DNA from: Sanghuangporus weigelae
Lineage: Eukaryota; Basidiomycota; Agaricomycetes; Hymenochaetales; Hymenochaetaceae
Assembly: GCA_033182465.1 (NCBI GenBank)
Contig: CP137322.1
Coordinates: forward strand, 806,001-870,000
Direction of reading: 5' to 3'
Length of the DNA stretch: 64,000 bases
The notes under the pieces: model-generated
Database searches by the model: none
What the model saw: only the letters and a program-made list of their open reading frames with translations
Told to the model about the DNA's origin: nothing
Position numbers and translations under genes: made by a program
Shown: positions 30,833 through 58,735 of the stretch, in pieces
Numbering within the stretch: position 1 is the stretch's first letter
Layout: each line of letters opens with the position of its first letter

Positions 30833-31401
30833 ATGGCGTTCTTGCTAAGTCCACTCGCTCCAGCGAAACCAGTCGGAACTGGGCGAAACCAGTCGGAACA
30901 CCGCGGAACTGGTCGTAACGACTTCGTACGCTCCCAAGCTTTAGTCTTACTCTTCACCGAGCCGACACAACCAACCAGTGACCTGCCAAGTGACCCTGCA
31001 CAAGAAATGTTCGATCAGCATCTCAATGCAATGGAGAATGAGATTCACTTACTGAGAGAAAAATTTCAGGTATGTATTCCTCAATTGTCTCTTATCCCTC
31101 ATTTTCTCATGCTGTCTTTGTTCTCTGCTCTACATGTTGCATGCTGCACTTCAGAGTAACAGCAATGATGCCAATGACGAGGGAGACGGTGGCGAATCAC
31201 TTCGCAGGAGATCTCATGCTGCAGGTTTTAGGCTTGCGATCCCGGCGAAGTTCTTGACAGAGGACGAGAAGATGGTCCGCAAGGACGTTGCAGTGAGGTT
31301 TTGTTTGTTTCTTTAACTGAATATATGCACTGAATATATGCACATCAGAGGCGCATTAGACAAGTTATGAAGTCACTCACAGAGAGGGGCGAGACTGACG
31401 T

Positions 31402-32822
31402 TGTAGACTATCAGACCCTCTTGAGCAGCGGCGAAGGCGACGGCGTTCGACCACAGAGAGGCGTCGGCGGTGTCAAAGATCGGAGAGGTAAGAAGGGATC
31501 CAACTCGTGGCTAGACCTCCTGGACAGCTTGGTGCCGTGGGGGACAATTTGACCCGGAAGCACTGCTGCCAATCGGGATGCGCGCTCAGTTGTGGGGAGA
31601 GCTCAATCGTAAGGGCTATGGTATGATCCGCGTATAAAGGGGACGCCGCCGATAATGTACGAGACAGAGCCGCCGACGAGTCAAGATGTCGGCGTCGCGA
31701 ATAAGCAGTAGAGCGACGGCGCTGTCGAGTCCTGCGAGCGGCGGCGATTACTAGTAGAGCGACGGTACCGCCGATTACCAGGAGAGCGACGGTGTCGCCG
31801 ATTACCAGGAGAGCGACGGTGTCGCCGATTGTCGAGAGGGCAATGGCGCTGCCGATTCCCCGGGAGAGCGGCGGTATCGCCGATTACCAGGAGAGCGACG
31901 GTGTCGCCGATTGTCAAAAGGGGGATGGCGCTGCCGATTCCCAGGACCGGGGATAGCTCTGCCGATCACTTGCGCAGTGGCGAGTGGGCACGTGCCCCTG
32001 TTGTTCCCTTAAACGGGGGCGGCGTCTTGTGTCGGCACACGATCTTCGGCGGAGGCGATAGAGAGCAAAAGGGCTAATAGAGACGAGAGGAGTGCACTAA
32101 GATCTATTCTGAACTACTGCTTCTGAACACTACATACATGAGGTCTATATATACTGGGGAATGCTGGGGAAGAGCGTCACAGAGGCGGCGACAGTGACGG
32201 CGCGTCACAGGCGTGCAATCGGTGCGGACCCGAAGATCGGGGCGCGCCGCGAAGCTGCCAAGACACGGGCGCGCGCTGATCGGGCTGGCGGTGATTGGCG
32301 CGGCGCATCATCATCGGGCGCGCTCGGATCGCTAAGTGGTCGCACCACACGAATATGAAACGTCAGGGGAGGCAATAATACTAAAAGGGGAATACGCGAG
32401 TGGCCGCCGCGTCCGACAATCGGACTCGGCGCACGAAGCAGCATAGTATGAACATGAAACGTGGTACCTGGGACCTTGTAAAACCACTACCCGACGTCGG
32501 ATAAGCCAATCAACAGGAGCCGACGAATATTCCATCGGCTATACGGTTCGATATCCTTCCGCCGCCGTAGCCGATACATCCGCTGCAACGTTCCCGGCGC
32601 CCGTGTATCAGAAAGTGCGGCTGGCCAAGCATACTCGGTTTGGGAAGTCTTCGAAGGACGGGAGACGGCGGACGTATTGGTTGAGCCGCGAATCAAGGAG
32701 CGGCGGTTTGGAAGGTCTTAAGGAGCGGCGGAGGTGTAGCGGTCGCCGCACGATGGTATACTGTACAGAGTACTGAGGGGCCTGTACCGACATACCGGTA
32801 CAGGCAAGTGCGGCGCACTACA
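31402..32822 (-). mobile_element. LTR-like unit D, left copy (solo LTR)
   Basis: The unit is 1421 bp and starts TGTAG, ending CTACA on the plus strand. It is flanked by perfect 4-bp duplications ACGT (31398-31401 and 32823-32826). Read on the minus strand it begins TGTAGTGCGCCGCACTTGCC and contains a TATA box (tatatata near 32145-32155), fitting a U3-R-U5 structure. It is the inverted, highly similar partner of 39492-40884. It is very CpG-rich. Confidence 0.75.
31735..31960. repeat. 27-bp minisatellite in unit D
   Basis: Degenerate copies of a 27-bp unit containing gccgattaccaggagagcg are tandemly arrayed. The matching array in the other D copy is at about 40370-40570. The 28-bp length difference between the D copies (1421 and 1393) is close to one repeat unit. 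Confidence 0.75.
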
Positions 32823-32891
32823 ACGTGTACGATGAGGAAGATGGTCTTCCGGCAGACGAGCACAGTTTCATCTCAGATTACAATGAACCGC

Positions 32892-34656
32892 TGTGGGTCG
32901 GCGGTGTCGTATCTGAAGGTGCTACAGATGTCCGTCCTACTAAGGGTGCTGAATGTATGAAGGGACCTCCAAAAATGGGATGCCGACGCTATCAGACTCT
33001 CAAAGACCTACTACCCGGCAGGTGCCAGGAACCGTCGGAGACGTAATGGATGGGTCTAAGGATGCCGCTGGATAAAGGGAATAGGATAACAGGGCCGCCG
33101 CTCAAAAGGGGGGATCACAAGAGGCTGCCGACGTGGTATAAACTCAGCCACAGGAAGGTATGAAGCGTATAAGATGAATATAAAGGATAAAATGGAGTGA
33201 GTGGCTGGAGAAGGCGCCGCTGGGTCGTCTGATAGGATGCCTGGGTCGTCGGATGGCCGCCGACGTCGAATAGAGGGGTGCCGGACTGAGGGGGAGGCCG
33301 TAGGAATCCGCCGCAGTAGCGTAAACGCGATAGATGAAAGGAAAAGACCGTATAAGATCAATATATGGGATAAACTGGAGTGAAAGGCTGGAAAGGACGC
33401 AGAAGGGGAGTCTGATGAGAAGCCTGGGTCGCTGAAGGGTCGCCGACGTCGAATAGAGGGGCGCCGGATCACTGAACGTCAGAGCGGCAGAGGCGTACCG
33501 GAGGCGGCGAAGGCAAGTAGAATGTGGAGTCAAACAAGAGGAGATGTCAAGGATAGTATATAGTCAAGGGGGAGGCTCAGTACATGAGGGGAGACTCAGA
33601 GTGAGGGATATCTCGAACTCTGGCGCTCGGTCTGGTACATGCTCTTGGAATCCTTGCTAGGCTTGGAATCCTGTCGTCTACAAGCTAGTATAAGCTCTAT
33701 ATATACTCTACTGCTGTCGCCGACACATCCTACTGTCTGACAACATCTCCTGAGTCATCTGGGTCGCCAAGGGCCGCTGCCGGAGCGCCCAGGTGAAATC
33801 TGAGAGCGGCAACGTGAGGGGGGCATCCAATCACATGAAATATTGAGTATCTGCAATAACACGGGCGCCGGCGGAGTTGGGCTTGGCGGCGCGAGTCGGT
33901 GGCTTGGCACGCCGATGTACCACATGCCTACCTTCCATACATGGTCTAATGGGGGCCGCCGCGTTGGGGGGAAGTCGGGAAACATCGGAACCAATGATTG
34001 GAGGCTGATATCGCGTATATGAGACAAAGGGCGCATCAGCCGATGTCCCTGAGGTGTCCGATGCATCGGCGGCACTCAATACAGAGTGTGGGCGATCCCT
34101 AGTGACTAATATGAGTGGCCGGAGCGGCAGTGCTGTGGGGGACTGCCGGACTGGTGGCAGATACATTGTAATGAGGCATGTGAGCACATATGACAATATA
34201 TAGCTCCCTAGACAATGGGGGACTGCTTGGTAAGCTGTAGGAGGCGTCGGCGAGGGTACCTGAGGATGTCTGAGTGTCCGCCGCATTGATCGGCGCCAAG
34301 GGGGGCCGACTCGGAGGCATCCAGAGTCGCCGCACGGCTGTACGTATGGTAAATCATAAGATCGGCGGCACGTAGTCACTGAGGGATGTGTCCTATAGTG
34401 CCTGGTGCTGGGTAGGAGCTGTCGGCGGACCTGTCTGAGTGTCGGGGAGCCATCGGCGGATCGATTTGGGTCATAGGAGGGCGCCGCAGTACAGTACGTG
34501 TGCTGGAATCAATGGATACGTGCTCAAATGATGTCCCGAGTGCAATAGGAGTGTGCCCTCACACTCTCAGGTGTCGGCAGTGCTGGGATATGGTATCTGC
34601 AGTAAGAGGGAGCCATAGTATGAGTGTACTGGCACAGGAGGAGCCAGTGCGCTACA
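32892..34656 (-). mobile_element. LTR-like unit C, left copy
   Basis: This is the inverted partner of 35427-37244, near-identical over about 1.7 kb. On the plus strand it begins TGTGGGTCGG and ends GCGCTACA. Its flanks are CCGC on the left and ACGC on the right, which do not match each other. It therefore probably arose by recombination between two C insertions: the left flank is the passenger gene and the right flank is B-type sequence. The 182-codon frame at 33831-34379 is low-complexity Pro/Arg/Ser and I do not treat it as a gene. Confidence 0.65.
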
Positions 34657-35372
34657 ACGCCGCCGACCAAGCAACCAGAGCGACCTCGATCAAAAGAAGC
34701 GATCAAACTTCTTAGAAGTCCAGAAGCACAACTACTAAAGCCTAAACGCTAAAAGGCTAAAGGCTAATAAGGTTTATGGAGACCTCACTGGCATTTCAGC
34801 ACTGTCAAGTCTGTGCACGAGTTTACATGGTCCTTTATGAAGTATACTACATAGTATGCATGGCAACAGTTGGTACACGTGACTGTCACATCAAAACCAA
34901 GCGACACCTTCAAGATACAATGCATTCCAATCCACCAAACCCAGTAGTACCCAAGAAACGAGAGGAACTCACGATCACAACTCGAACCCCTTGAACTGCG
35001 AACCCGATAACCTGGAGAATGATTGGATGGTATAGACCGGAGTTGCACACACCATGTCCAGCATCTACGATACAGGCAAACCTTTATTTACCAAGAGATG
35101 CGAACCTGGAGACCAAGCAGTTACAACTCCTTATACAACGAAGGATATGGCATTACATTCGAGACATATGATATGAAGGCAAAGCATGGCTAGTCACCAG
35201 AACCCAGCAGAACCCGCCAGCAGAGCTTATGCAGTTCATGATATGCCTTGGACCATACTCTACACTGACCCGACACCTTAACATGGACGTGCGAGTTATG
35301 CTTACCCTCGCTGGACCTCGAGATGAATTCCAAAGAGTCACATACTGAGCAGCCTACATCGCTCCAAGGGCA
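34657..35372 (+). repeat. B-type repeat, partial copy 1
   Basis: It matches 40915-41640 and about 47510-48060 almost base for base (from ccaagcaaccagag through tttatggagacctcactgg). It is bordered by the two inverted C units. The short frames inside have stops and no motif. Confidence 0.75.
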
Positions 35373-35426
35373 AAGATGCTCCACTGTCCTAACTATCAAT
35401 TTTTCATTCAAAGGAAATCTTGGCGG

Positions 35427-37244
35427 TGTAGCGCACTGGCTCCTCCTGTGCCAGTACACTCATACTATGGCTCCCTCTTACTGCAGATACCATATCCCAG
35501 CACTGCCGACACCTGAGAGTGTGAGGGCACACTCCTATTGCACTCGGGACATCATTTGAGCACGTATCCATTGATTCCAGCACACGTACTGTACTGCGGC
35601 GCCCTCCTATGACCCAAATCGATCCGCCGATGGCTCCCCGACACTCAGACAGGTCCGCCGACAGCTCCTACCCAGCACCAGGCACTATAGGACACATCCC
35701 TCAGTGACTACGTGCCGCCGATCTTATGATTTACCATACGTACAGCCGTGCGGCGACTCTGGATGCCTCCGAGTCGGCCCCCCTTGGCGCCGATCAATGC
35801 GGCGGACACTCAGACATCCTCAGGTACCCTCGCCGACGCCTCCTACAGCTTACCAAGCAGTCCCCCATTGTCTAGGGAGCTATATATTGTCATATGTGCT
35901 CACATGCCTCATTACAATGTATCTGCCACCAGTCCGGCAGTCCCCCACAGCACTGCCGCTCCGGCCACTCATATTAGTCACTAGGGATCGCCCACACTCT
36001 GTATTGAGTGCCGCCGATGCATCGGACACCTCAGGGACATCGGCTGATGCGCCCTTTGTCTCATATACGCGATATCAGCCTCCAATCATTGGTTCCGATG
36101 TTTCCCGACTTCCCCCCAACGCGGCGGCCCCCATTAGACCATGTATGGAAGGTAGGCATGTGGTACATCGGCGTGCCAAGCCACCGACTCGCGCCGCCAA
36201 GCCCAACTCCGCCGGCGCCCGTGTTATTGCAGATACTCAATATTTCATGTGATTGGATGCCCCCCTCACGTTGCCGCTCTCAGATTTCACCTGGGCGCTC
36301 CGGCAGCGGCCCTTGGCGACCCAGATGACTCAGGAGATGTTGTCAGACAGTAGGATGTGTCAGCGACAGCAGTAGAGTATATATAGAGCTTATACTAGCT
36401 TGTAGACGACAGGATTCCAAGCCTAGCAAGGATTCCAAGAGCATGTACCAGACCGAGCGCCAGAGTTCGAGATATCCCTCACTCTGAGTCTCCCCTCATG
36501 TACTGAGCCTCCCCCTTGACTATATACTATCCTTGACATCTCCTCTTGTTTGACTCCACATTCTACTTGCCTTCGCCACCTCCGGTACGCCTCTGCCGCT
36601 CTGACGTTCAGTGAGTGAGTAGGGCTTGGGATTTAACCCTGAGCCTCCTCCCCACACTTTATACCTGTCCGGCGCCCCTCTATTTGACATCGGCGACCCT
36701 TCGGCGACCCAGGCTTCTTATCAGACTCCCCTTTGGCGTCCTTTCCAGCCTTTCACTCTAGTTTATCCCATCTATTGATCTTATACGGTCTTTTCCTTTC
36801 ATCTATCGCGTTTACGCGACTTCGGCGGATTCCTGCGGCCTCCCCCTCAGTCCGGCACCCCTCTATTCGACGTCGGCGGCCATCCGACGACCCAGGCATC
36901 CTATCAGACGACCCAGCGGCGCCTTCTCCAGCCACTCACTCCATTTTATCCTTTATATTCATCTTATACGCTTCATACCTTCCTGTGGCTGAGTTTATAC
37001 CACGTCGGCAGCCTCTTGTGATCCCCCCTTTTGAGCGGCGGCCCTGTTATCCTATTCCCTTTATCCAGCGGCATCCTTAGACCCATCCATTACGTCTCCG
37101 ACGGTTCCTGGCACCTGCCGGGTAGTAGGTCTTTGAGAGTCTGATAGCATTGGCATCCCATTTTTGGAGGTTCCTTCATACATTCAGCACCCTTAGTAGG
37201 ACGGACATCTGTAGCACCTTCAGATACGACACCGCCGATCGACA
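35427..37244 (+). mobile_element. LTR-like unit C, right copy (solo LTR)
   Basis: The unit is 1818 bp, starting TGTAGCGCACTGG and ending GATCGACA. It is flanked by perfect 4-bp duplications GCGG (35423-35426 and 37245-37248). A TATA box (gtatatatagagc, about 36374) lies at mid-length on the plus strand. It has the same overall plan as unit D. It contains the uninserted form (gggatttaaccctgag, about 36628) of the site where the 1539-bp LTR sits in C copy 3. Confidence 0.75.
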
Positions 37245-37248
37245 GCGG

Positions 37249-37324
37249 CACTGGGATATGGTATCTGTAGTGGGAGGGAGTCATAGTATGAGTGTACTGG
37301 CACAGGAGGGGCCAGTGCACTACA
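37249..37324 (-). repeat. 76-bp fragment of another C unit
   Basis: On the minus strand it reads TGTAGTGCACTGGCCCCTCC and on, matching the first ~75 bp of unit C with several substitutions. The flank beyond its terminus is GCGC. The rest of this copy is absent. Confidence 0.65.
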
Positions 37325-38788
37325 GCGCACACCGCTATTCTGGGCGTCAGCGGTCGAGTATTGTACATACTTCACCAGTGTCCAACACACTGGTGTATCA
37401 GCTGCCCGAGTGACTCCAACAGCCACAAAGGGTGTATACGACTCGATTCGATCCTTCCGAGCGCTCCGCCATACCTTAGGACGTGCCCGAGACTTCGTAC
37501 ATATCTTGGCTCACCCCATTTCACCTTCCATTGCACATATGTCACATTCCAAGACCCCAAAGACCCACTAATACTGCGCGATAGGCGCCACGCCATATTT
37601 CATTGTCTATACTTTGTCACACTACCACTCGCCGACCTCTGCCTCAGTCACCCAAGCGGATATTGGCACTCCGAAGCCTGGGCCCAGACTCCTGAAGGGA
37701 CCCTAGGCCTTTTCATCAGCGTTTCACACTGCCAGGGACCGTTCCAACCTGTTTCGAGGTACCCAACGGTCACGTACCTTCATCCTAGACGTTCCACGAG
37801 GTGCGCTCCATTGTTCAGACTTTGCCGAAGTGGCCTCCGAGGTTCGGACTTCCGATCAGGGTTCGCTGATTGGTACATCCGTTTGATCACTCCATCCAGT
37901 TTGTTCACTGATTTGGGTGCGCGGTTCAGAGGACCCTTCCTGGACAGTTTTCATGTTGTTTCACAGTTCCTTGCAGTCCATCTGACCCTTATCGTGTCAG
38001 TTTCACACTCCTTGCTATGATTTCATCCTGTTTCACAGTTTCCTGTAGTTCACTAGACTTCTGTCTCGTCAGTTTCACGCTCCTTGTTGTAGTTTTATTA
38101 TGTTTCACCTCACGTCTCGTCACGATCCTACCCCAGTCCCAGATCAGTCATTTTGTACATGTTTTGGACCCCCATAGTTTATAAAACCCATCCAGATATC
38201 GTAGTTTTCAGATAGCAAATACCAGAGATCTGTTCAGCGCATGCATCTTCTGTTCCAAAAACTCTCAGACCATCCCAACTGACTCTGTCATTCATAGAAA
38301 GGCACAGTACCCACCTTGGGTGTCTCGTCTTCTTTGTCTAGACTAGTCCGGATGTCCCGGGGGTGACTCGGATACTCTCAGCTTGTCTTCTTTCTTCATC
38401 AACTCATCTCCGAGGTGATTAAGTCGCCGAAGTATTCACTCGGTTCACCACAGCACATCCGGATTGGTCTCCCTAGACGACCATTGAGTATCACATCTTG
38501 CCTATGTGTATTCGCTCCCCCTTTTCTTCCCTTTTTAGATTGTTCACACCGACCATTCCGGCCGGAGGTATCCTGACTATCCATGGTTTCCACAGAGTAG
38601 GCCGGAGTCTCGGTCTATCTCAGGGGAGTCTTCCGGATCACCCTTCTTTGTTTGGTTTCCCCAATTTGTTCTCGCTCGCTCCCTATAGGATCGAATGCCC
38701 TAGCCTGCTAGGATCGCACCTACAGACCTAGTCCGATCATCCACCCACCCTATCGATCTTACACCGGGGTCTGGACACGGACATCGAG
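37325..38788. other. Unique CACTA interior with a 70-bp-scale tandem repeat
   Basis: This is single-copy sequence between LTR units. At about 37958-38113, a ~72-bp unit containing tttcac.gttcctgtagt..(g)tcagtttcac is repeated twice and then partially. No coding family is recognised. The 242-codon frame at 37292-38020 has no motif and runs across the LTR fragment edge. Confidence 0.45.
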
Positions 38789-38861
38789 ATGAGCGAAACG
38801 AGCGATGGAGAGTACATGGGTGAGTCAACTACTCCTTGGCACGCTATTGCGATGACAGTCC

Positions 38862-39491
38862 ATGTACCTAGGTACTTTGGCCATTCTCTTTGATTATCAA
38901 ATTCTGAACGAGCTGCTAGAGCCATCTTATGTCTTTGTTACTCCGGACACGCCTCATGATCCTCCAAAGATTTGGAGGTCACTTGACAAGATGTTCTTCT
39001 GGAGGTCTATTCTGGTTCTTATTGCCTGGCTTCACCTGGTCTACCATCTCCCCCACAAAGCTTGCAACCTTTCTCTCCGCATTCTAAAGTCTATATTCAT
39101 CCTTCTTGGTGTCGTACCAGCTGGATGGAGTCCAATCCTCTCTCTGCAGACGACTTTTCACAAATTGGGTCTTAAAGACAAGTTTCTCATTATGTCTATG
39201 TGCCCTGGCTGTCGCCAAGTATTCCCTCAGGACTCCCCCAAAACCCTGAGATGTCCTGAATGCAAAATTACTCTATTCGAAGATTCAAAGCCTAAACTTA
39301 AGTATCCTTTTTATCCAATCTCTCAGCAGCTGGCAGAACTCATTATGCAACCTGGGTTTGAAGACCACATGGAATCTTGGCAGGAAAGCAAATATACAGA
39401 GGGAGAATACCGAAATATTAGTGATGGAATAATTTGGAACAGCCTTGAAGGGCCGGATGGCAAGTTATTTTTCGATCGCAGCCCTAACCGC
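38862..39491 (+). pseudogene. Tnp2-type (CACTA) transposase fragment
   Basis: An open frame encodes a cysteine pair cluster (MCPGCRQVFPQ...LRCPEC, two CxxC), then YPISQQLAELIMQPGFEDHMESW and ISDGIIWNSLEGPDGKLFF. This order (zinc-ribbon CxxC, pairwise helix, DG.IW....DG..FF) is the region just before the catalytic DDE domain in basidiomycete Tnp2 transposases. The frame is cut at 39491 by unit D (duplication CCGC), and the catalytic part is not found in the window. An upstream ATG at 38789 with a plausible donor at about 38819 may be the preceding exon. Confidence 0.7.
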
Positions 39492-40884
39492 TGTAGTGCG
39501 CCGCACTTGCCTGTACCGGTACGTCGGTACAGGCCCCTCAGTACTCTGTACAGTATACCATCGTGCGCCGACCGCTACACCTCCGCCGCTCCTTAAGACC
39601 TTCCAAACCGCCGCTCCTTGATTCGCGGCTCAACCAATACGTCCGCCGCCTCCCATCCTTCGAAGACTTCCCAAACCGAGTATGCTTGGCCAGCCGCACT
39701 TTCTGATACGCGGGCGCCTGGAACGTTGCAGCGGATGTATCGGCTACGGCGGTGGAAGGATATCGAACCGTATAGCCGATGGAATATTCGTCGGCTCCTG
39801 TTGATTGGCTTATCCGACGTCGGGTAGTGGTTTTACAAGGTCCCAGGTACCACGTTTCATGTTCATACTATGCTGCTTCGTGCGCCGAGTCCGATTGTCG
39901 GACGCGGCGGCCACTCGCGTATTCCCCTTTTAGTATTATTGCCTCCCCTGACGTTTCATATTCGTGTGGTGCGACCACTTAGCGATCCGAGCGCGCCCGA
40001 TGATGATGCGCCGCGCCAATCACCGCCAGCCCGATCAGCGCGCGCCCGTGTCTTGGCAGCTTCACGGTGCGCCCCGATCTTCGGGTCCGCACCGATTGCG
40101 CGCCTGTGACGTGCTGTCACTGTCGCCGCCTCTGTGACGCTCTTCCCCAGCATTCCCCAATATATATAGACCTCATGTATGTAGTGTTCAGAAGCAGTAG
40201 TTCAGAATAGATCTCAGTGCACTCCTCTCGTCTCTATTAGCCGTTTTGCTCTCTATCGCCTCCGCCGAAGACCGTGTGCCGACACAAGACGCTGCCCCCG
40301 TTTAAGGGAATAACAGGGGCATGTGCTCACTCGCCACTGTGCAAGTGATCGGCAGAGCTATCCCCTCTCCTGGGAATCGGCAGCGCCATCGCCCTCTTGA
40401 CAACCGGCGACACCGTCGCTCTCCTGGTAATCGGCGACACCGCCACTCTCCTGGGAATCGGCAACGCCATCGCCCTCTTGACAATCGGCGACACCGTCGC
40501 TCTCCTGGTAATCGGCGGCACCGTCGCTCTACTAGTAATCGCCGTCGCTCGCAGGACTCGACAGCGCCGTCGCTCTACTACTTATTCGCGACGCCGACAT
40601 CGTGACTCGTCGGCGACTCTGTCTCGTACATTATCGGCGGCGTCCCCTCTATACGCGGATCATACCATAGCCCTTACGATTGAGCTCTCCCCACGACTGA
40701 GCGCGTATCCCAATCGGCAGCAGTGTTTCCGGGTCAAATTGTCCGCCATGGCACCGAGCTGTCCGGGAGGTTTAGCCACGAGTTGGATCCCTTCTTACCT
40801 CTCCGATCTTTGACACAGCCGACGCCTCTCTGTGGTCAAACGCCGTCGCCTTCGCCGCTGCTTAAGAGGGTCTGATAGTCTACA
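39492..40884 (+). mobile_element. LTR-like unit D, right copy (solo LTR)
   Basis: The unit is 1393 bp, TGTAGTGCGCC...GTCTACA, flanked by perfect 4-bp duplications CCGC (39488-39491 and 40885-40888). A TATA box (aatatatatagacc, about 40160) precedes a probable R-U5. It is the inverted partner of 31402-32822, with the 27-bp minisatellite one unit shorter. Confidence 0.75.
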
Positions 40885-42200
40885 CCGCCGACTGCCTATT
40901 ACCACGGACTACCACTCTAACGCCGTCGACCAAGCAACCAGAGCAACCTCGATCAAAAGAAGTGATCAAACTTCTTAGAAGTCCAGAAGCACAACTACTA
41001 AAGCCTAAACGATAAAAGGCTAAAGGCTAATAAGGTTTATGGAGACCTCACTGGCATTTCAGCACTGTCAAGTCTGTGCACAAGTTTACATGGTCCTTTA
41101 TGAAGTATACTACATAGTATGCATGGCAACAGTTGGTACACGTGACTGTCACATCAAAACCAAGCGACACCTTCAAGATACAATGCATTCCAATCCACCA
41201 AACCCAGTAGTACCCAAGAAACGAGAGGAACTCACGATCACAACTCGAACCCCTTGAACTGCGAACCCGATAACCTGGAGAATGATTGGATGGTATAGAC
41301 CGGAGTTGCACACACCATGTCCAGCATCCACGATACAGGCAAACCTTTATTTACCGAGAGATGCGAACCTGGAGACCAATCAGTTACAACTCCTTATACA
41401 ATGAAGGATATGGCATTACATTCGAGACATACGATATGAAGGCAAAGCATGGCTAGTCACCAGAACCCAGCAGAACCCGCCAGCAGAGCTTATGCAGTTC
41501 ATGATATGCCTTGGACCATACTCTACACCGACCCGACACCTTAACACCGATGTGCGAGTTATGCTTACCCTCGCTGGACCTTGAGATGAATTCCGAAGAA
41601 TCACATACTGAGCAGCCTACATCGCTCCAAGAGCAAGGATGCCACTCAATGACGGCAATGACATCGTTATGGAGTACTGACAGTGGAGCATTCCATATCG
41701 GAGCACCACCTCTATTGTCTCAGTCAGCAACTCCACAGAATACTGTTATAGTGGAGACAATCTTACAAAGATTGGAGCAAAGTAGAGCGAAGCGCAGCAG
41801 GATGACAAAGGGACAGATGTAATGGTGGAGAAAAGTGGAGTAAAGTGGAGACAGGATGAGTAAGAAATAGGATGGAAAATGGAATATCTGGGAGCATAAA
41901 TAGCTGTAGGATTAGGCCCTCATTTCCCCATCTTTCGATCCTCTTAACACACTGGTGTAAAGCTTGCCCTACAGTGAGCTATTACTGTGTGCTTTGTACT
42001 ATCACGCCTCTTGGAAATCCCAATCTGCTTTACTATCACCTCGTATCTGAAAGCATCCATAACTCGGACCGCAACTAGGAAGGCTAGTAAGGGACCGCGT
42101 GGTACAGCCAGACGTGGGTAGATAAGATCACTTCTGCACAACACACCGCTGCTTAGGCAAAAGGATTGAACCGGTGTAACCCCGGGCCTACTCCCTAACA
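40885..42200 (+). repeat. B-type LTR-like repeat, copy 2
   Basis: It matches the B unit that surrounds the chromovirus (47460-48072, 60280-60820, 61281-61462) and ends with the same ctccctaaca. It preserves the empty sites of two insertions in the other copy: gaacccgcc (near 41468) where the chromovirus sits, and ggaaatccc (near 42015) where the 455-bp solo LTR sits. A TATA-like cataaatagc is at about 41896. Confidence 0.75.
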
Positions 42201-43262
42201 ATACTTCTACTGCACTCGAGACATCATTTGAGCATGTTTCCACCGATTCCAGCACATGTACTGTACTGCGGCGCCCTCCTAAAGCCCAGATCGATCTGCC
42301 GATGGCTCTCCGACACTCAGTCAGGTCTGCCGACAACTCCTACCCAGCACCAGGCACTATAGGACACATCCCTCAGTGACTACAGGTTGCCGATCTTATG
42401 ATTTACCATATATACAGCTTTGTGGCGACTCTAGATGCCTCCGGGTCGGCCCCCCATGGCGCTGATCAATGCGGCGGACATTTAGACATCCTCAGGTACC
42501 TTCGCTGACGCCTCCTACAGCTTACCAAGCAGTCCCCCATTGCCTAGTGAGCTACATATAGTCATATGTGCTTATATGGCTCATTACGATGTATCTGGCG
42601 CTGATCCAGCAGTCCCCCGCAGCACCACCGCTCCGGCCACTCATATTAGTCACTAGGGATCGCCTACACTCTGTATTGAGTGCCGCCGACGCATCGGACA
42701 CCTCAGGAACACTGACTGATGCGCCCCTTGTCTCATATACACGATATTAGCCTCTGATCATCGGCTCCGATGTTTCCCAACTTCCCCCTGATGCGGCGGC
42801 CCCCATGAGACCATGTATGGAAGGTAGGCATGTGGTACATTGGCGTGCCAAGCCCCCGACTCGCGCCGCCGAGCCCAACTCCGCTGGCGCCTGTATTATT
42901 GCAGATGCTCGATATTTCATGCTATTGGATGCCCCCCTCACATTGCCGCTCTCAGATTTCACCTGGGCGCTCCGGCAGTGGCCCTTGGCAACCCAGATGA
43001 CTCAGGAGATGTTGTCAGACAGTAGGACATGTCGGCGACAGCAGCAGAGTATATATAGAGCTTATATTAGGTTGGTAGAAGGAGACAATCATCTGAGAGA
43101 GCATGTACCAGACCGAGCGCCGGAGTTTGAGATATCCCTTGACTATATACCATCCTCGACATCTCCTGTTGCTTGATTCATTATTCTACTTGCCTTCGCC
43201 ACCTCTGATACGCCTCGGCCGCTCTGACATTCAGCGAGTGTGTAGAAGCTTGGGATTTAACC

Positions 43263-44801
43263 TGTTAGGACCAGTGTTTTTAGACGAGGTGGTCAGTCTA
43301 AGCGTACCGGAACAAGTCCCTGCTTATTCCTTCTGATGATAATTGATTGGAGATGGAACGAAGGTTATAGATGTACTACTTTAGAAGCGAGCGATAGGCT
43401 CAAGCTTGACCTCAGTAGTAGAACAGGGTTTCAATCAAAGGGTACAGTTTTCGATTGAGAGTACAAAATAATTTTGCTGAGGGACAATGCCCCGCTCAGC
43501 TGGCCCTTAAATAACCTATTTACTAAATAGTACCGACTACCTATTACTACCGACTATAGCCTTGCTATTGGTCTAGACAATATGTTTTCTCTGACACCAG
43601 TACTCTACTCTGGTGCCAACACCGATACTTTCCTCTAGTGTTGAATCACAATATTTCTACCATATTAGGAGGGTTTGTTTGAGTCCTACTACCCCGATGC
43701 TTCGAGAAGCTTCTTCCGTGCTTCCTCCGATCTACAATCGTTATCACATGTTAATCTCTCCTTATCTTTACCCCGCGATCCTTCTCCGTTCCCAGACGGG
43801 TTCCCATGATAGTTGCCAAACTATCGCTTCTCTGGCGCTCCGTTCCCGGGCCGAGCTTCTGCCGCTTAATCCTCGATCATGGGGGAGATAGTGATATCAG
43901 GGTTAGAGATCGGCAGAGCTTGCCGATCTTCTCCCGGCGCATGAGTGTACTCCGCTACACTCCTTCTGTGCCTCGCCGCGACTTCGATGTCCGATAGTTG
44001 TAGTCCTGGGCCCGTGGTTAGCCGTAGCCTCTGTCCAAAGTGCTCGCGGCCATTCCACTCGTCAACTGTAATTACCCCTGGCTCTGACGCTCGCCAAGCC
44101 TGCATCAAGCGTTCTATCGCTTCTTCCGTAAGATGTTCAATGTCCAAAGGTGGCCGCTTGTAAACTGGCCAATCTACTTCCACTGCCGTGTGACTGCACA
44201 AGGTCTGGTGCCGATGCTGATTGATCCAAGCTCGCACGCCGACCTTCAGTGCATAGACATCCCTATCGCTAAGCCATATGGATACCTCATGGTCGTATGC
44301 ACTCATTCCGTGGTTCGGTAATGGTTGGTCTTCTGTTCGTTCCGAGGGTCCGGGCTTATGCCGAATCTTGACATCGGCTGCTTCCCTTGACACTAACCGT
44401 TCCGTGAAGTTCTTCATGAGCCATTCCGCAAGTACCCAGCTTCGTTGGTAGGCCAAGTAACAATTGGCGCACACCAAGCTCTCATGTACAAATCTTCTAG
44501 TTGCACCACGCCGATAATGTCTTCGTTGCAGGAGTTCCGTATACCTTGCGACATTCCTTTCTTCCATCGCCACCAGACTGCGTTCCGGCGGTGGAGTATG
44601 TCCAATGTGCATATTAGTTAGTCCTAATTGCAAATCATTAGAGTCCTCCGTGTCTTCTCCAGACGATCCGTGGTTTGCTACTCTTGAGTCGCCACCACTG
44701 TTCTGCCGTAGTAGCCTTTCGAAATAGTCTTGATTTGGCATCGCAACTCGGTGTGTAAAATTTAGCCCACGCCGTATTAGATAACCACAATTTTCGTAAC
44801 A
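43263..44801 (-). mobile_element. Solo LTR of the 12.2-kb chromovirus
   Basis: The 1539 bp run TGTTAGGACC...TTTCGTAACA and are about 99% identical to the LTRs at 48073 and 58736. They are flanked by perfect 5-bp duplications TAACC (43258-43262 and 44802-44806). The uninserted site is present in C copy 2 near 36628. The strand is given in the sense of the element's transcription. Confidence 0.9.
43866..44741 (-). CDS. LTR-encoded ORF, solo-LTR copy
   Basis: An uninterrupted frame of 291 codons from the ATG at 44741. It is the same protein as in the two LTRs of the complete element, with three amino-acid differences. The content is a charged, helical protein with VCANCYLAY (one CxxC) and conserved-looking stretches EVSIWLSDRDVYALKVGVRAW and TVDEWNGREHF. 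I recognise no family. In this solo copy no element promoter precedes it. Confidence 0.45.
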   Translation of the reverse strand: MPNQDYFERLLRQNSGGDSRVANHGSSGEDTEDSNDLQLGLTNMHIGHTPPPERSLVAMEERNVARYTELLQRRHYRRGATRRFVHESLVCANCYLAYQRSWVLAEWLMKNFTERLVSREAADVKIRHKPGPSERTEDQPLPNHGMSAYDHEVSIWLSDRDVYALKVGVRAWINQHRHQTLCSHTAVEVDWPVYKRPPLDIEHLTEEAIERLMQAWRASEPGVITVDEWNGREHFGQRLRLTTGPGLQLSDIEVAARHRRSVAEYTHAPGEDRQALPISNPDITISPMIED

Positions 44802-45410
44802 TAACCCTGAGCTTCCTCCACCCCTCTTGTACCTCGTCGGCACCCCTCTATCTGACGTCGGCGACCCTTTGGCGACCCAGGCTTCCTATCAGACTCCTCT
44901 GCAGCACCCTTTCCAGCCTTTCACTCCAGTTTATTCCATATATTGATCTTATACGGTCTTTTCCTTTCATCTATCGTGTTTATGCTACTTTGGCGGATTC
45001 GTGCAGCCTCCCCCTCATTCCTGCTTGCCCTATTTGACGTCGGCGGCTATCCAGCGATACAGGCATCATACCAGACGACCCAGCGGTGCCTTCTCCACCC
45101 ACTTACTCTAGTTCAGCCCTTATATTCATCTCATATGGTCCTGCCAACCCTGTGTCCAAGTTTCCAGTACGTCGGCAGCCTCCTGTGATCCCCCCTCTTG
45201 AGCGGCGGCCCTATTAGCCTATCCCTTTCATACTTCGGCATCCCTACACCCCTCCATCATGTCTCCGACGGTTCCTGGCATCTGCTAGGTAGTGGGGATT
45301 TAGAGTCTGATAGCGTCGGCATCTCGTTTTCGGAGGTTTCTTCATACGTTCAGCACCCTTAGTAGGACGGACATTGGTAGCACCTTCAGAGACACACACC
45401 ACCCACTACA

Positions 45411-45802
45411 GCGCTACACCAGTCCAGCTCATCTCCAGCGCTACCATCTTCACTCCATGTGTACATGTCATCATTCATATCCAGAAGAGTGTGATCAAAC
45501 ATTCCATAGTCGTTGTCCACAGCAGCAGCAGCAGGCTATTGTTGATGTTGCATTTGTTGCTGTTGCTGCTGTTGTTGATCCCCAGGTGGGCGAGGTCTTG
45601 AGAACGGTTGAGCTATGTATGACGTATTGATTCTTCAAGGTTCTGTCTGCTGGGCAGAGAGGTCAGTCTGTGCATGTTGTTTCTTCTCATAGTAAGGCTG
45701 TAGTCGATCCTTTCCGTTTGTTCCTGCAAGACACCACTGGCACTTACAAATTGTCTTGCGTTTCTGATACTTATACTTGTTATTTTTCTTTTCTGGGGGC
45801 AT
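45411..45802 (-). pseudogene. N-terminal Tnp2 transposase piece
   Basis: From the ATG at 45802 the frame reads MPPEKKNNKYKYQKRK, then CKCQWCLAGTNGKD, the typical start of basidiomycete Tnp2 transposases (basic leader plus CxCxxC). A probable intron follows, then a Gln-run region and an acidic stretch (DYGMFDHTLLDMNDDMYTW) that ends where unit C is inserted. It is on the opposite strand from the other transposase fragment at 38862-39491. Confidence 0.6.
45520..45578. repeat. CAG/GTT trinucleotide-rich tract
   Basis: A run of cagcagcagcagcag is followed by imperfect gttgctgtt units. On the minus strand it encodes a Gln-rich stretch within the Tnp2 piece. Confidence 0.7.
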
Positions 45803-48072: not shown

Positions 48073-49611
48073 TGTTAGGACCAGTGTTTTTAGACGAGGT
48101 GGTCAGTCTAAGCGTACCGGAACAAGTCCCTGCTTATTCCTTCTGATGATAATTGATTGGAGACGGAACGAAGGTTATAGATGTACTACTTTAGAAGCGA
48201 GCGATAGGCTCAAGCTTGACCTCAGTAGTGGAACAGGGTTTCAATCAAAGGGTACAGTTTTCGATTGAGAGTACAAAATAATTTTGCTGAGGGACAATGC
48301 CCCGCTCAGCTGGCCCTTAAATAACCTATTTACTAAATAGTACCGACTACCTATTACTACCGACTACAGCCTTGCTATTGGTCTAGACAATATGTTTTCT
48401 CTGACACCAGTACTCTACTCTGGTGCCAACACCGATACTTTCCTCTAGTGTTGAATCACAATACTTCTACCATATTAGGAGGGTTTGTTTGAGTCCTACT
48501 ACCCCGATGCTTCGAGAAGCTTCTTCCGTGCTTCCTCTGATTTGCAATCGTTATCACATGTTAATCTCTCCTTATCTTTACCCCGCGATCCTTCTCCGTT
48601 CCCAGACGGGTTCCCATGATAGTTGCCAAGCTATCGCTTCTCTGGCGCTCCGTTCCCGGGCCGAGCTTCTGCCGCTTAATCCTCGATCATGGGGGAGATA
48701 GTGATATCAGGGTTAGAGATCGGCAGAGCTTGCCGATCTTCTCCCGGCGAATGAGTGTACTCCGCTACACTCCTTCTGTGCCTCGCCGCGACTTCGATGT
48801 CCGATAGTTGTAGTCCTGGGCCCGTGGTTAGCCGTAGCCTCTGTCCAAAGTGCTCACGGCCATTCCACTCATCAACTGTAATTACCCCTGGCTCTGACGC
48901 TCGCCAAGCCTGCATCAAGCGTTCTATCGCTTCTTCCGTAAGATGTTCAATGTCCGAAGGTGGCCGCTTGTAAACTGGCCAATCTACTTCCACTGCCGTG
49001 TGACTGCACAAGGTCTGGTGCCGATGCTGATTGATCCAAGCTCGCACGCCGACCTTTAATGCATAGACATCCCTATCGCTAAGCCATATGGATACCTCAT
49101 GGTCGTATGCACTCATTCCGTGGTTCGGTAATGGTTGGTCTTCTGTTCGTTCCGAGGGTCCGGGCTTATGCCGAATCTTGACATCGGCTGCTTCCCTTGA
49201 CACTAACCGTTCCGTGAAGTTCTTCATGAGCCATTCCGCAAGTACCCAGCTTCGTTGGTAGGCCAAGTAACAATTGGCGCACACCAAGCTCTCATGTACA
49301 AATCTTCTAGTTGCACCACGCCGATAATGTCTTCGTTGCAGGAGTTCCGTATACCTTGCGACATTCCTTTCTTCCATCGCCGCCAGACTGCGTTCCGGCG
49401 GTGGAGTATGTCCAATGTGCATATTAGTTAGTCCTAATTGCAAATCATTAGAGTCCTCCGTGTCTTCTCCAGACGATCCGTGGTTTGCTACTCTTGAGTC
49501 GCCACCACTGTTCTGCCGTAGTAGCCTTTCGAAATAGTCTTGATTTGGCATCGCAACTCGGTGTGTAAAATTTAGCCCACGCCGCATTAGATAACCACAA
49601 TTTTCGTAACA
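48073..49611 (-). repeat. 3' LTR of the chromovirus
   Basis: On the transcribed strand it starts TGTTACGAAAATTG and ends CCTAACA. The U3 part carries an ORF (48676-49587). A TATA-like AT-rich stretch lies downstream of that ORF, leaving about 270 bp for R-U5. Confidence 0.9.
48676..49587 (-). CDS. LTR-encoded ORF (U3 of the 3' LTR), unknown protein
   Basis: A 303-codon frame lies entirely inside the LTR, in the same sense as gag-pol, starting 24 bp into the LTR. It would lie at the 3' end of the element's RNA, after pol. The protein is hydrophilic and helical, with a single CxxC (VCANCYLAY), an acidic Ser-rich N-terminus and a Trp-rich middle. It contains no signal peptide or membrane segment. 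I recognise no family. A second in-frame ATG (AMPNQDYF) is conserved in all three LTRs of the window, while the first is lost in the solo LTR, so the downstream start is the more likely one. Confidence 0.5.
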   Translation of the reverse strand: MRRGLNFTHRVAMPNQDYFERLLRQNSGGDSRVANHGSSGEDTEDSNDLQLGLTNMHIGHTPPPERSLAAMEERNVARYTELLQRRHYRRGATRRFVHESLVCANCYLAYQRSWVLAEWLMKNFTERLVSREAADVKIRHKPGPSERTEDQPLPNHGMSAYDHEVSIWLSDRDVYALKVGVRAWINQHRHQTLCSHTAVEVDWPVYKRPPSDIEHLTEEAIERLMQAWRASEPGVITVDEWNGREHFGQRLRLTTGPGLQLSDIEVAARHRRSVAEYTHSPGEDRQALPISNPDITISPMIED

Positions 49612-49622
49612 TTCCTCCTCCT
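49612..49622 (-). promoter_or_regulatory. Polypurine tract of the chromovirus
   Basis: On the minus strand AGGAGGAGGAA abuts the 3' LTR start TGTTACG, the normal position for plus-strand priming. Confidence 0.8.
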
Positions 49623-49849
49623 AAGATCCACTTCGGACTGCAAGGAGAGTGTGGATCCAGTTAATTGTGGTAGCCATAATCTTGCTGTTTCGTTTGGTTC
49701 CTTACCGGGCCTCGATTTCGTGTCGGCCTCCAACATACTAGCTGCTTCCAAACAGGCTAGGATATAGTTAAGGGATATATCATATCCTTCCAGCATCAAT
49801 TTCTGACGCTAGGGATAGTTTAACGACGTGTCCGGGTCGATCTTCTTCT

Positions 49850-52800
49850 CTAAGCCTCACTGACCTCGCTATCCGTTGAGTCAGCCTGATACCAATCATT
49901 ATAGGAGAGTCCTTCCTCTAGTCCTTCCATCCTATCGTATCTTCGTATAGGTAAAGCGTTTGCTCGGGTGAATGGCCGTTTAGCAGCTCTCCAATGATGC
50001 TTGTGCCATTCTGGATAGGCAAAATCTCGTTGCTTTATACCTGTCTTGTTGACGTATTTCCTTCGTTGTCTAGTTCTCTGCAGCACCTTTCTCCCATAAA
50101 GCGTGCTCAGGTAATAGTCGTCCGCTCTGCGTACATCCAGAAGTCTCTGCGCCAAAGCGACTATTCCTGCAACCTTCTTTCTAAAGGGAAGGTTCACGGC
50201 GTCCGGCCAACCGTTCCTTTCGTGATACTCTCGCAATTTTTCGGGGGCGTTGCGTAGCCCTTCTACAGGTTCCCAGGTATTTTCCTCTTCGGGGTAGCCG
50301 AGCCATTTAACCTGGTATTCCCATGTGTTGTGCCGTTTTCTCATGTCCCGAATTACTTCTACTTCGTATTCGGCTTCTCCAGCAATGACTTCTGGTGGTG
50401 GTCTTGTTCGTTGTGTCGGATTTTTTCGTTCTCGATAGGGAATTAATAGTCCTGCGTAAAACACCGGGTGGATCCTCAGTTCCTTTGGAAGGTCCAGCTC
50501 GTAGTTGACTGGCCCATGCTTCGCGACGATCTTGTAAGGTCCAATATTTCTGTCACCTAATTTCCTAGTAGGGACTAATAGTGTTAGATTTCGGCCATCT
50601 AACATGACCTTATCTCCGATCTCGAATTCCGGCATCGGGCCTCGGTGTTTATCTGCAAACTTCTTCATTGCATCTCGTGCTTTAGTAAGTGCTTCCAACG
50701 CTTCTTGTTGATGCTTCATCCGCATTGCCACATAGTCTTGAGTACCTTGGATCGGAAGCTTAAATCCTACTTCCGGCTGAAACCCATAAACCATTTCAAA
50801 CGGTGACTTCCCAGTACTTGAGTGACTTCGACTGTTATAGGCAAATTCCGCCATAGGAAGATGTTCGTCCCAATCATCCTGTTGCAGACTGGAATAGCAT
50901 CTTAGCAGCTGTTCCATTTCCTGGTTCACTCGTTCCGTTTGTCCGTCTGTCTGTGGATGATATGCCGTACTAAGCTTCGTTTCGATTCCAAGGGCCTGGT
51001 TCACTTGTTCGGTAAATCGGCTTGCAAACTGCGGTCCCCTGTCGCTAATTACTGTTTTTGGGGTTCCAACCTTGCTGTAGACATGTTTGATCATCATGTC
51101 AGCAGTGGTTTTCGAGTTTGCATTTACAGTGGTAGGTATAAATGTTCCCATTTTTGAGAACCGATCTACTACCACTAGTATTGCATTGTTTCCTTTGCTC
51201 GTAGTTGGAAGTCCGGTGACGTAGTCCATAGTAATTTCTTCATAGGGCCGATTCATTACTGGCAGTGGTTGTAAAGGCGGTTGCGTCTTTCCTCGTCTTG
51301 CCTTCGTCCGTTGGCACGTATCGCAAGTGCGCACATATTCTTCGACCCATTCCCTAATCTTTGGCCACCATACTCTTCGTTCCAGTTTCGTGATAGTCTT
51401 GTCTATCCCCGGGTGTCCTGCTGCTGGAGCGTCATGGCACTGTCGTACTAATTCTCGTTTAATTTCATCAACTGGTGGGATTACCAATTTTCCATCCCTC
51501 CACCAGTATCCTTCTTCGAAAGTCCCGATTTCTTGCTCCTTGGACTTTTCGTATCCTGCTCGAATCTTTTCTCCCAGTTCCGAACCTCCTGTAATTTCAA
51601 ACACCCGTATAGTGCGCACGGGCAGTTCTTGGTTCCGGAACAGCTCTGGGGGAAGTAGGACTTGTTCTGGTACATCTTCAACGCCTTGTTCGTAGTCAGG
51701 CCGTCGTGACAGTGCATCCGCTCTTGAATTCTTGGTTCCTGGTCGATACTCGATTCTGAATCGAAATCTGCTGAGAAAAGTAGCCCATCTCGCCTGGCGT
51801 CCACTGAGTTTTCTAGCTCCCATGAAATACCGGAGGTTTGCCTGATCACTAATTACCCGAATTTCATGTTTAGCTCCTTCCAAGTGGTGTCGCCAATTGC
51901 TCAAAGCTTTGACAATTGCCAGCAATTCCTTGTCCATTACTGGGTAGTTGTTCTCGGCGTCTCGATAGGTATTCGACCAATATCCAATAGGATGCAAAAT
52001 TCCATCGTCACTTTCTTGCGAGAGCACTGCTCCCATCGCAAAGTTAGATGCATCTGTTTCCAGTACAAATTGTTTCTCGTGATCGGGTCGTACAAGCATA
52101 GGTGCAGATGTGAAGGCTTCCTTCAACTTGACGAAGCCTTCTCGTTGACGATCTCCCCAAGTAAATGTCTTCTTGCCAGACATGAGTTCCGTTAGCGGCC
52201 TAGCGATCTTGGCGAAGCCTTCGATAAATTTTCGGTAGAAGTTCGCAAAACCAATGAACTTTCGAATGTCTCGCTTGCTTGACAAATCTGGCCATTCTTG
52301 AACTGCTTTTACCTTGTAGGGATCCATCTGCATGCCCGATTGGTTAACAACAAATCCTAGATAGTCGAGCTCCTGTTTGGCAAAGTAGCACTTCTCTGGC
52401 TTGCAAAAGAAGTCTGCTTTCCTTAACCTGCGCAATACTTCTGCTAGCAGGTCCCAGTGTTCCTGTTTTGTTTCCGCATAGATAATAATGTCATCTAGAT
52501 AAATGAGTATGCCCTGCCCAATCATGTCCTGAAAGAGCTCGTTCATTGCACGTTGGAATACCGCAGGTGCATTCATTAGTCCAAACTGCATTACCAGCGG
52601 CTGGTAAACCCCCATGTGAGTTCTGAAGGCGGCATACTTTTCATGCCCTGGATGGATTCGCACATTGTTATACCCGCTTCGTAAATCCAGTGTAGAAAAC
52701 CATTTCGCATGAGCCAAATCGTCCGGTAGCATATGTAATAGAGGCATTGGCTGGTGATCCGGTATGACCACCGCATTCAATCCTCTGTAGTCGATTACGA

Positions 52801-55003: not shown

Positions 55004-55143
55004 AGCCGAGAGATTAACCTTTCTCTGTCCCTGAATGACGTCAATGGGTATAGTGGGATGGTTGGAATTTGGTCTAGCAATAGTCCATCGGCGCTTTACT
55101 TCCTTTGAGCCCTTGTCAGTACCCGATGGTGACTGACTGCTCT

Positions 55144-56196
55144 TTAAAAATCCTCCTCGGAATCCTCCTCGAGGGTGTGCGAAGCCCGTTCCTTCCGCCT
55201 TGGTAACTTCGCCCGTTTGTCCAGTAATTCTTCCATTTCGGAATCGCTATCAATCCCAACTTCCCGGCGTTTTAGGAAGCGGCCAGTCTTGCCAGATCGT
55301 TTCTTTTGCACCCGTCTCTTGTAGTTGGTTCGGTGTCCACGGCTTCCCTGTTGTTCTCGCCCTACATTGTTGCAGTCCCGTGCAAAATGACCTGTTTTGC
55401 CGCATACCCAGCATGCCCCGGAATTTTCCCCTCGGGACCCCCTAGTAAAGCGCCTAGACATATCAATGTCCATAGGCTCACCCTGAAACTCAGCTGGATG
55501 ACGAGCTTCAGGGGGCACCGGCGTGTACGATACCGCCTGCCCGTCTTTAAACATAGGGGTATACTTCTTATTACTGCCAATTACTTTGGCTGCTATTAGA
55601 CTGTCCTCCAGATTTTTCGCGTTATCCTGCCATTGGGTCAGGTCCCAATTAGGGTGTTCCGTATTTGTAAGGAGTGCCTTTAGGATGGTCTGGTTCAGTC
55701 CACGTTTGAACTCGTAAACCAGTGCTTGTCCATTGTAATGCTTTGGTAGTCTCATCCTGATGTCGTTGAAGGCCCTACTATACAGCTTTACCCGCGCCCG
55801 TTCCTGATAAATCGTTCGTATGTTTCGCTCGGCCTCTTCTTCTAGTCCAAAAATGCCATTGTGGTTGAGCGCTAATTCGTTCCATAGATCTGTCTCGGTG
55901 TCCCATCCACCCTTTTGGTCAATAATCCAATTATTCGTGACCGGTTCTTGTTTCCAGGTGGAGACTAATCGATTCCTATTCACAGCCCATTTGCCGTTAA
56001 CCCAAGTCTGAGCTTGTCCTCGTAAACATTCCAAAATGATCTTAACCCGTTTTTCTGGATTGTCGGGATGTTTCTCGTTCAACCGACTGATCATTTGATT
56101 CTGAAAGTTTTCAAGCGACTCATATGGGTTTCCCTTAAACAAAGGGTACTTCATGATATCTTTGTTAGACATATTGATCTGGACGAATGCAACCAA
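55144..56196 (-). CDS. gag: Gag protein of the chromovirus
   Basis: A 350-residue protein. The capsid-like N-terminal two thirds is a helical retrotransposon Gag domain (PYESLENFQNQMISRL... and LRGQAQTWVNG). A CCHC zinc knuckle CWVCGKTGHFARDC lies near residue 265, followed by a basic tail with SGKTGRF and an acidic end. It binds and packages element RNA and forms the particle. Its TAA (55144-55146) overlaps the T-run used to enter pol. Confidence 0.95.
   Translation of the reverse strand: MVAFVQINMSNKDIMKYPLFKGNPYESLENFQNQMISRLNEKHPDNPEKRVKIILECLRGQAQTWVNGKWAVNRNRLVSTWKQEPVTNNWIIDQKGGWDTETDLWNELALNHNGIFGLEEEAERNIRTIYQERARVKLYSRAFNDIRMRLPKHYNGQALVYEFKRGLNQTILKALLTNTEHPNWDLTQWQDNAKNLEDSLIAAKVIGSNKKYTPMFKDGQAVSYTPVPPEARHPAEFQGEPMDIDMSRRFTRGSRGENSGACWVCGKTGHFARDCNNVGREQQGSRGHRTNYKRRVQKKRSGKTGRFLKRREVGIDSDSEMEELLDKRAKLPRRKERASHTLEEDSEEDF
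55146..55150 (-). promoter_or_regulatory. Candidate -1 frameshift site between gag and pol
   Basis: The last gag codons read GAT TTT TAA. The pol frame is open through the same bases as GGA TTT TTA AAG, one base back. Slippage on the five-T run would bypass the gag stop and fuse Gag to Pol with no gap. It is not a canonical X XXY YYZ heptamer. Confidence 0.55.
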
Positions 56197-56374
56197 AAAT
56201 TTGTGAGTATCACTCTCATTCAGCGCATTTAATAATACATGGTTAAGTAGTTAACTATCCAGCGAGTTCCACCTCCGCTTTCCAGCTAACCACCTTACCC
56301 TTCCTGCCCGGTCGGTTCTTGGGCGTCTTCCTTATCTTGGCGAGCTCTCCGCTCTGAGCCAAGGCCTATCTCCT

Positions 56375-58609: not shown

Positions 58610-58735
58610 TCTCAATGTGTCACAGGCACAAGAAGAGAACCCTCCTGAGGCAGAGCAATACTTACTGATCGTTAGTGGGTATTTGCACTACGAAACAGCA
58701 AGATTGGTTACCCCAAGATTGGAGCAAAATTATAA

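Follow-up and report, generated by a model that had tools for sequence, protein, structure and literature searches.

Two long terminal repeat-like families in the genome of Sanghuangporus weigelae insert almost only at CpG-centred 4-bp sites

Ginger1 elements of Hydra and other animals duplicate a 4-bp target with CG in its centre when they insert (CCGG in 75% and CCGT/ACGG in 24% of cases); they have TGTNR ends, terminal inverted repeats (TIRs) of about 40-270 bp, a Gypsy-like integrase and non-autonomous copies, and were found in four animal species only, as PMC2836005 reports. Retroviral integrases prefer targets whose central step is a flexible pyrimidine-purine one, most strongly where they make short duplications, and their target palindromes are only weakly conserved, according to PMC4422553. 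Here, we describe two families of long terminal repeat (LTR)-like units, C and D, and a relative of C called C', from the basidiomycete Sanghuangporus weigelae, which were noticed in a stretch of 64,000 nucleotides (GCA_033182465.1, contig CP137322.1, positions 806,001 to 870,000, or G000:C5:806001-870000 in our coordinates), hereafter the window. We confirmed that C and D insert almost only at CpG-centred 4-bp sites, genome-wide. A first-pass annotation, made from the letters of the window alone, had claimed that both families insert only at NCGN, while Ty3 elements of the window do not, and that an enzyme reading CpG would explain insertion into other transposons.

The units and their flanks are arranged in the window as follows:

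31398-31401, no strand: 4-bp duplication ACGT, left of D left
31402-32822, minus: D left, 1421 bp, TGTAGTGCGCCGC..GATAGTCTACA on the minus strand, the BLAST reference copy
32823-32826, no strand: 4-bp duplication ACGT, right of D left
32888-32891, no strand: CCGC flank of C left, unlike its other flank
32892-34656, minus: C left, about 1.77 kb
34657-34660, no strand: ACGC flank of C left
35423-35426, no strand: 4-bp duplication GCGG, left of C right
35427-37244, plus: C right, 1818 bp, TGTAGCGCACTGG..GATCGACA
37245-37248, no strand: 4-bp duplication GCGG, right of C right
37251-37324, minus: C-type 5'-end fragment, followed by GCGC at 37325-37328
39488-39491, no strand: 4-bp duplication CCGC, left of D right
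39492-40884, plus: D right, 1393 bp
40885-40888, no strand: 4-bp duplication CCGC, right of D right
42203-43262, plus: first part of C' (copy 3, of an older sister family), lacking the 5' end
43263-44801, plus: solo LTR of family E/A inside C', with the CG-free 5-bp duplication TAACC
44802-45410, plus: second part of C', ending in CCCACTACA
45411-45414, no strand: GCGC flank of C'

All of these junctions read as the first-pass annotation had given them, from ACGT/ACGT at D left, CCGC/CCGC at D right and GCGG/GCGG at C right to the unequal CCGC and ACGC of C left and the GCGC of both the C fragment and the right end of copy 3 (45410). Copy 3 had been counted as C: its NCGN right flank stands, but it belongs to C', an older sister family about 12-20% diverged from C. 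Five of the seven C' right ends seen adjoin NCGN (two in locus L036, one each in L022, L033 and the window), and two do not (GCAT in L035, CTGC in L011).

We then searched the whole genome (33.87 Mb, 13 contigs; positions are given below as contig:position) for patterns made of the 13 terminal bases at either end of D and C, and read the adjoining 4 bases in the first 100 of 122, 138, 103 and 185 matches with at most one mismatch; these are the matches listed, to which junction and copy counts refer. Only matches with an exact core were counted, and 31 with a core mismatch (13 of them NCGN, some probably chance matches) were left out. NCGN was found at 329 of 369 junctions, that is at 77/94 D 3' ends, 86/90 C 3' ends, 81/93 D 5' ends and 85/92 C 5' ends, while 34 junctions read NTGN or NCAN and six read neither. 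The central step was thus pyrimidine-purine in 363/369 junctions, nearly always CpG and in some cases CpA or TpG; TpA was absent from the 369 exact-core matches, the ATAC of one discarded match being probably due to chance. For comparison, CG makes up 5.9% of the dinucleotides in the window and 4.55% (747/16417) within 300 bp of 28 insertions that were fetched with matching flanks, of which 27 carry this dinucleotide at positions 2-3. With the window frequency taken as expectation, binomial tails were below 1e-76 in each of the three junction sets tested, a figure to be read with caution, as junctions partly depend on one another (each element contributes two, and some loci are duplicated). 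No fixed base was detected at the positions neighbouring the 4-bp site in the 28 fetched insertions. Within the site, the outer base was T in only 7 of 172 cases (both strands of 86 NCGN duplications among the matches listed), so that the target is close to VCGB, with T disfavoured at position 1 and A at position 4.

Among the matches listed, 108 copies (61 D and 47 C) could be paired at both ends, and 88 of them (52 D, 36 C) have identical 4-bp flanks, compared with a mean of 10.9 and a maximum of 21 after shuffling. NCGN accounts for 86 of these intact duplications, and the other two are CTGT and CCAC. Flanks were repeated elsewhere within the fetched set for 27 of 36 insertions examined, and a paralogue spanned the join for 14 of the 36, several without any gap and some with small gaps. 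These empty paralogues showed that the 4-bp duplication is exact and that CG was there before insertion. The best case was L012, where the 17 empty paralogues read ACTG (10), ACGG (3), ATGG (2) or ACCG (2), and where the copy that was hit is ACGG; at L011, 19/25 paralogues, just ~81% alike, read CCAG, and the hit copy reads CCGG. Since hit copies carry CG where most L012 and L011 paralogues do not, CG belongs to the target before insertion and is a condition of the target rather than a product of the element. A CpG-centred target was therefore well founded in the first-pass annotation, but its "only" was too strong: besides the CTGT and CCAC duplications, the CCAC site (L005) has 16 empty paralogues, each with CA in the centre (15 CCAC, 1 CCAT), showing that pyrimidine-purine sites other than CpG are sometimes used and that CpA can occasionally serve as a target. 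The single paralogue of one L009 site, 83% alike, reads GGGT.

The flanks were mismatched in 20/108 pairs among the matches listed, five of which differ by a single change of CG to TG or CA. Such changes are compatible with later deamination of methylated CpG, which is no proof that the enzyme requires methylation. Another source of mismatch was found in two C copies, C2:2074772 (minus strand; L018) and C2:2084629 (plus strand; L042, L043), whose flanks are swapped, GCGC/GCGT and GCGT/GCGC. As they stand, these flanks do not align with any paralogue across the joins; when the inner flanks were swapped back by a script, both joins aligned with paralogues (L004, 294 bp without a gap; L010, 269 bp with one gap, where a few element letters remained in the flank). 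Recombination between these two C copies has therefore inverted about 10 kb, and C left of the window (CCGC/ACGC) may be the product of a similar inversion.

The Ty3/Gypsy elements of the same genome served as controls. The window contains one of them:

48073-60274, minus: Ty3/Gypsy element (family A) flanked by two E LTRs, with the CG-free duplication GAACC/GAACC

Its GAACC and the TAACC of the solo LTR at 43263-44801 were correctly described in the first-pass annotation as CG-free 5-bp duplications, and a solo LTR of Gypsy B (L021) has ATATA on both sides. Gypsy A and B, which were also found with internal regions, thus do not use CpG-centred sites.

As for their structure, C, C' and D begin with TGT and end with ACA; D has TGTAG at both ends and C has TGTAG and TGTCG, in agreement with TGTNR termini. 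TG..CA ends together with a duplication of 4-6 bp, as in LTRs, are found in C and D, and "LTR-like", like the CpG-reading integrase, was a fair inference of the first-pass annotation. The 5' end matched the reverse complement of the 3' end no better than shuffled sequences did, for C as for D. Miniature inverted-repeat transposable elements were rejected as an identity, there being no TIR and most units measuring 1.3-2.0 kb. C and D are unrelated save for an initial TGTAGYGC and a mid-element TATATATAGA, a 10-mer that lies at position 952 in C and C' alike and that occurs five times in the window, once per large copy and nowhere else there:

32144-32153, minus: TATATATAGA box in D left
33696-33705, minus: TATATATAGA box in C left
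36378-36387, plus: TATATATAGA box in C right
40161-40170, plus: TATATATAGA box in D right
43050-43059, plus: TATATATAGA box in C'

Among the matches listed, 61 of 75 paired C ends span 1.58-2.26 kb and 59 of 78 paired D ends span 1.31-2.10 kb, and the longer units that were inspected contain nested insertions. Median divergence is 1.2% among eight C copies and 2.0% among six D copies, and both families have therefore spread recently. Within D (31402-32822 and 39492-40884) lie 27-bp repeats in an array that varies, and within C a 183-bp repeat; these repeats may explain a large share of the differences in length. Immediately within its 5' end (32753-32822), D can form a strong DNA hairpin (z -4.5), with a weak counterpart in C (z -1.1). 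A frame of C matched three database proteins, all of Sanghuangporus: two of S. weigelae (97% over 67% of the query, and 69% over 42%) and one of S. baumii (82% over 15%). P0002, a Myb protein whose tail resembles C, was attributed to a gene model that extends into a copy of C.

We propose, with a probability of about 0.52, that C, C' and D are LTRs, mostly solo, of one or more related retroelements with a CpG-centred integrase of the Gypsy/Ginger1 type, complete copies being rare or lost in this genome. This integrase would join the two element ends to the target strands at a stagger of 4 bp, the axis of symmetry lying on CpG; it probably requires a bendable pyrimidine-purine step at the centre, would read the C and G of that step directly and may contact the outer bases weakly, disfavouring T first and A last. 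We infer LTR nature, enzyme class, bending and base reading alike, and the prevalence of a central pyrimidine-purine step that is nearly always CpG agrees with an enzyme of the integrase fold that both bends the target centre and reads its bases.

Target-type bases were read at 363/369 junctions among the matches listed, so that almost every listed copy is solitary, and no common spacing of same-strand C or D neighbours was seen among them. The six other junctions comprise three 5' and three 3' ends. GGAGA precedes one D (C6:801702) and one C-type copy (C1:170247), and CCCC precedes one C; TTTTG follows two C copies, one of which is abutted by a D (C6:1002533). The D copy preceded by GGAGA keeps a CCGT outer flank, as expected of a 3' LTR. 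Upstream of the GGAGA pair, where the internal side was read no further than 296 bp from the junction, the final 32 bases agree at 21 positions, which none of 5000 shuffles reached (30/5000 when GGAGA was set aside) and which only one of 378 control pairs attained, a pair taken as duplicated loci; a further-up local match had a score reached by 6/2000 shuffles. One of these upstream stretches has a frame that ends ~125 bp ahead of the junction, and neither matched any other fetched locus. With moderate support, this flank resembles the end of an internal region with its purine tract, and its presence at one C-type and one D 5' end favours the mostly solo-LTR reading. The T-rich stretches ending in GGAGA, C1:170255-170555 (L044) and C6:801411-801711 (L045), offer the most promising route to the parent's internal region. 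On the other side, one C 3' end followed by TTTTG reads TTTTGGAGCCC, like a primer-binding side, and the flank TTTTGGAGCCCACGCG on contig C7 could be a candidate primer-binding side because its complement ends in CCA.

Several observations weigh against LTRs of such a retroelement. The TTTTG copies have nothing in common beyond those five letters, the upstream similarity concerns two 296-bp stretches and short T-rich sequence, and an internal-like flank occurs at only about 4 to 6 of 369 junctions among the matches listed despite the youth of the copies; that young LTR-like units almost never come with an internal region is a puzzle. No complete element linked to C or D was found among the listed matches and fetched loci. 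Nor was an integrase gene linked to them among the 150 of 248 rve candidates (PF00665 profile search) that were scored, although a rare source is possible, and 90 of these 150 rows are open 1534-aa frames, the Gypsy B length, in the same genome. The autonomous parent and integrase that the first-pass annotation had hoped for were thus not found, the few candidates inspected among the 150/248 scored including no recognisable integrase source lacking reverse transcriptase; OTU and Ulp1 were not searched.

Various candidate elements were examined and rejected. The rve genes fetched near C or D ends belong to separate Gypsy or Copia-like elements, and an 801-aa rve frame, one of four examined, is Gypsy B with a stop. 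Six pairs of C neighbours on one strand lie 6.6-7.65 kb apart among the matches listed; three are not paired LTRs, at least one member having its own perfect duplication (L013; C2:932652 and 940156; C2:1684964), and in L019/L020 Gypsy B lies between. At C5:443358-453573, both outer flanks are CCGG, 10.2 kb apart. Downstream of C7:1284987 (flank TTTTGGAGCC), a stretch of 10.5 kb contains Gypsy B along with that element's LTR, and C does not recur in it; C3:2021418, a D-like 3' core followed by TTCAA, has no similarity to D. In L033/L034, C sits within the frame of an element that we take to be Copia-like by its motifs and that has an empty paralogue; a Copia-like element on C12 and a C' pair on C7 are likewise not C-flanked elements. 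Two old elements have LTRs too diverged for duplications to be read. Two D 5' ends with flank CTCGC and no listed 3' partner (C1:3400441, C2:2027553) lie 5.9-6.0 kb from a Gypsy B-type rve, which may reflect the capture of a piece of D that was then amplified together with Gypsy B. Three rve hits of the Gypsy B kind (C6:1188586, 1199365 and 1210144) are spaced by exactly 10,779 bp, as in an LTR-sharing tandem array.

Alternatively, C, C' and D might never have been paired LTRs, and would be protein-less single-piece DNA units mobilised in trans by an integrase that is Ginger1-like or of the LTR type. This would agree with the 363 ends, out of 184 exact 3' and 185 exact 5' ends among the matches listed, that adjoin NCGN or a one-step change of it instead of an internal region, as well as with the lack of fixed spacing between same-strand copies, with their youth and with the older C', likewise unpaired in what was seen. 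It accounts poorly for the GGAGA-type flank common to a C-type and a D copy, and Ginger1 has TIRs whereas C and D have none. Moreover, yeasts retain LTR families without any complete member. We consider such units possible but unlikely.

Further down in probability, and distinctly unlikely in our view, comes the combined reading that an active site recognises CpG, possibly methylated, that the element thereby homes on silenced DNA and that LTR-like units of at least two families spread chiefly singly. Flanks are repeated for 27/36 insertions, yet they contain less CG (4.55%) than the window (5.9%), so that CpG reading alone does not explain insertion into other transposons, and this part of the first-pass annotation is weakened.

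TIR-less non-autonomous DNA transposons of another mushroom superfamily, for example relatives of CMC/Plavaka-A or KDZ, are improbable. PMC12730594 describes Plavaka-A of Agaricomycotina with TGT..ACA ends and Kyakuja without TIRs, which recalls the ends and mushroom host of C and D, but also duplications of 2 bp with an EnSpm-related (CMCT) transposase for Plavaka-A and of 7 bp for Kyakuja, against 4 bp as judged here from empty sites. Plavaka genes are present in this genome; they amount to just 8 matches, several with stops, and the best locus has no inverted repeat within its 3.7 kb.

Even less probable is that CpG is chosen by a tethered reader of CpG, methyl-CpG or heterochromatin rather than by the active site. 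The location of 27/36 insertions in repeated sequence and the CG to TG/CA changes at the duplicated site would suit it, but such a tether should enrich CpG nearby, and flanks are CpG-poor, the central dinucleotide alone being fixed and the position exact to the base. Finally, although C and D are CG-rich targets for one another, an effect of chance or of CG-rich targets is already refuted by CG at 27/28 sites against 4.55% locally and by L012, where most paralogues lack the CG that the hit copy has.

Two other frames were noted in the window. One with a CPGC..CPEC motif (38856-39596), interrupted by D right, presumably resembles Tnp2/CACTA transposases and had no Pfam match above cut-off. The 1539-bp A/E LTR (43263-44801 and 48073-49611) contains an open frame of more than 300 aa (MPNQDYFERLLRQ..), also without a Pfam match above cut-off, which is retained in solo copies.

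Since CpG is the unit of DNA methylation, whether an integrase active site reads CpG or methyl-CpG becomes a testable question, and a CpG-reading enzyme, if real, would be a tool for CpG-directed insertion. A limited search of open-licence literature found no report of CpG-centred duplications in fungi. The Ty3/Gypsy LTRs A/E and B of this genome likewise have TG..CA ends, about 1.5 kb and solo copies with duplications; unlike C and D, their duplications are CG-free (GAACC, TAACC; ATATA), they occur with internal regions too, and neither TATATA nor TATAAA is present in the E or Gypsy B LTRs. The 4-bp spacing and the pyrimidine-purine centre of C and D are shared by retroviral integrases that make 4-bp duplications, among them that of prototype foamy virus; their consensus is weak, according to PMC4422553, whereas two families and an older sister follow here a near-absolute dinucleotide rule, for CpG and rarely CpA/TpG. 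Ginger1, as described in PMC2836005, shares both the CG-centred 4-bp duplication and the TGTNR termini, and differs by its TIRs from C and D, which have a wider target (VCGB) and a fungal host and are known here without a transposase. Ginger1 is the closest precedent, and, TIRs being missing, we would say that integration of C and D works like that of Ginger1, not that they are Ginger1; in this way, the CG-centred rule of an animal transposon extends to fungal LTR-like elements.

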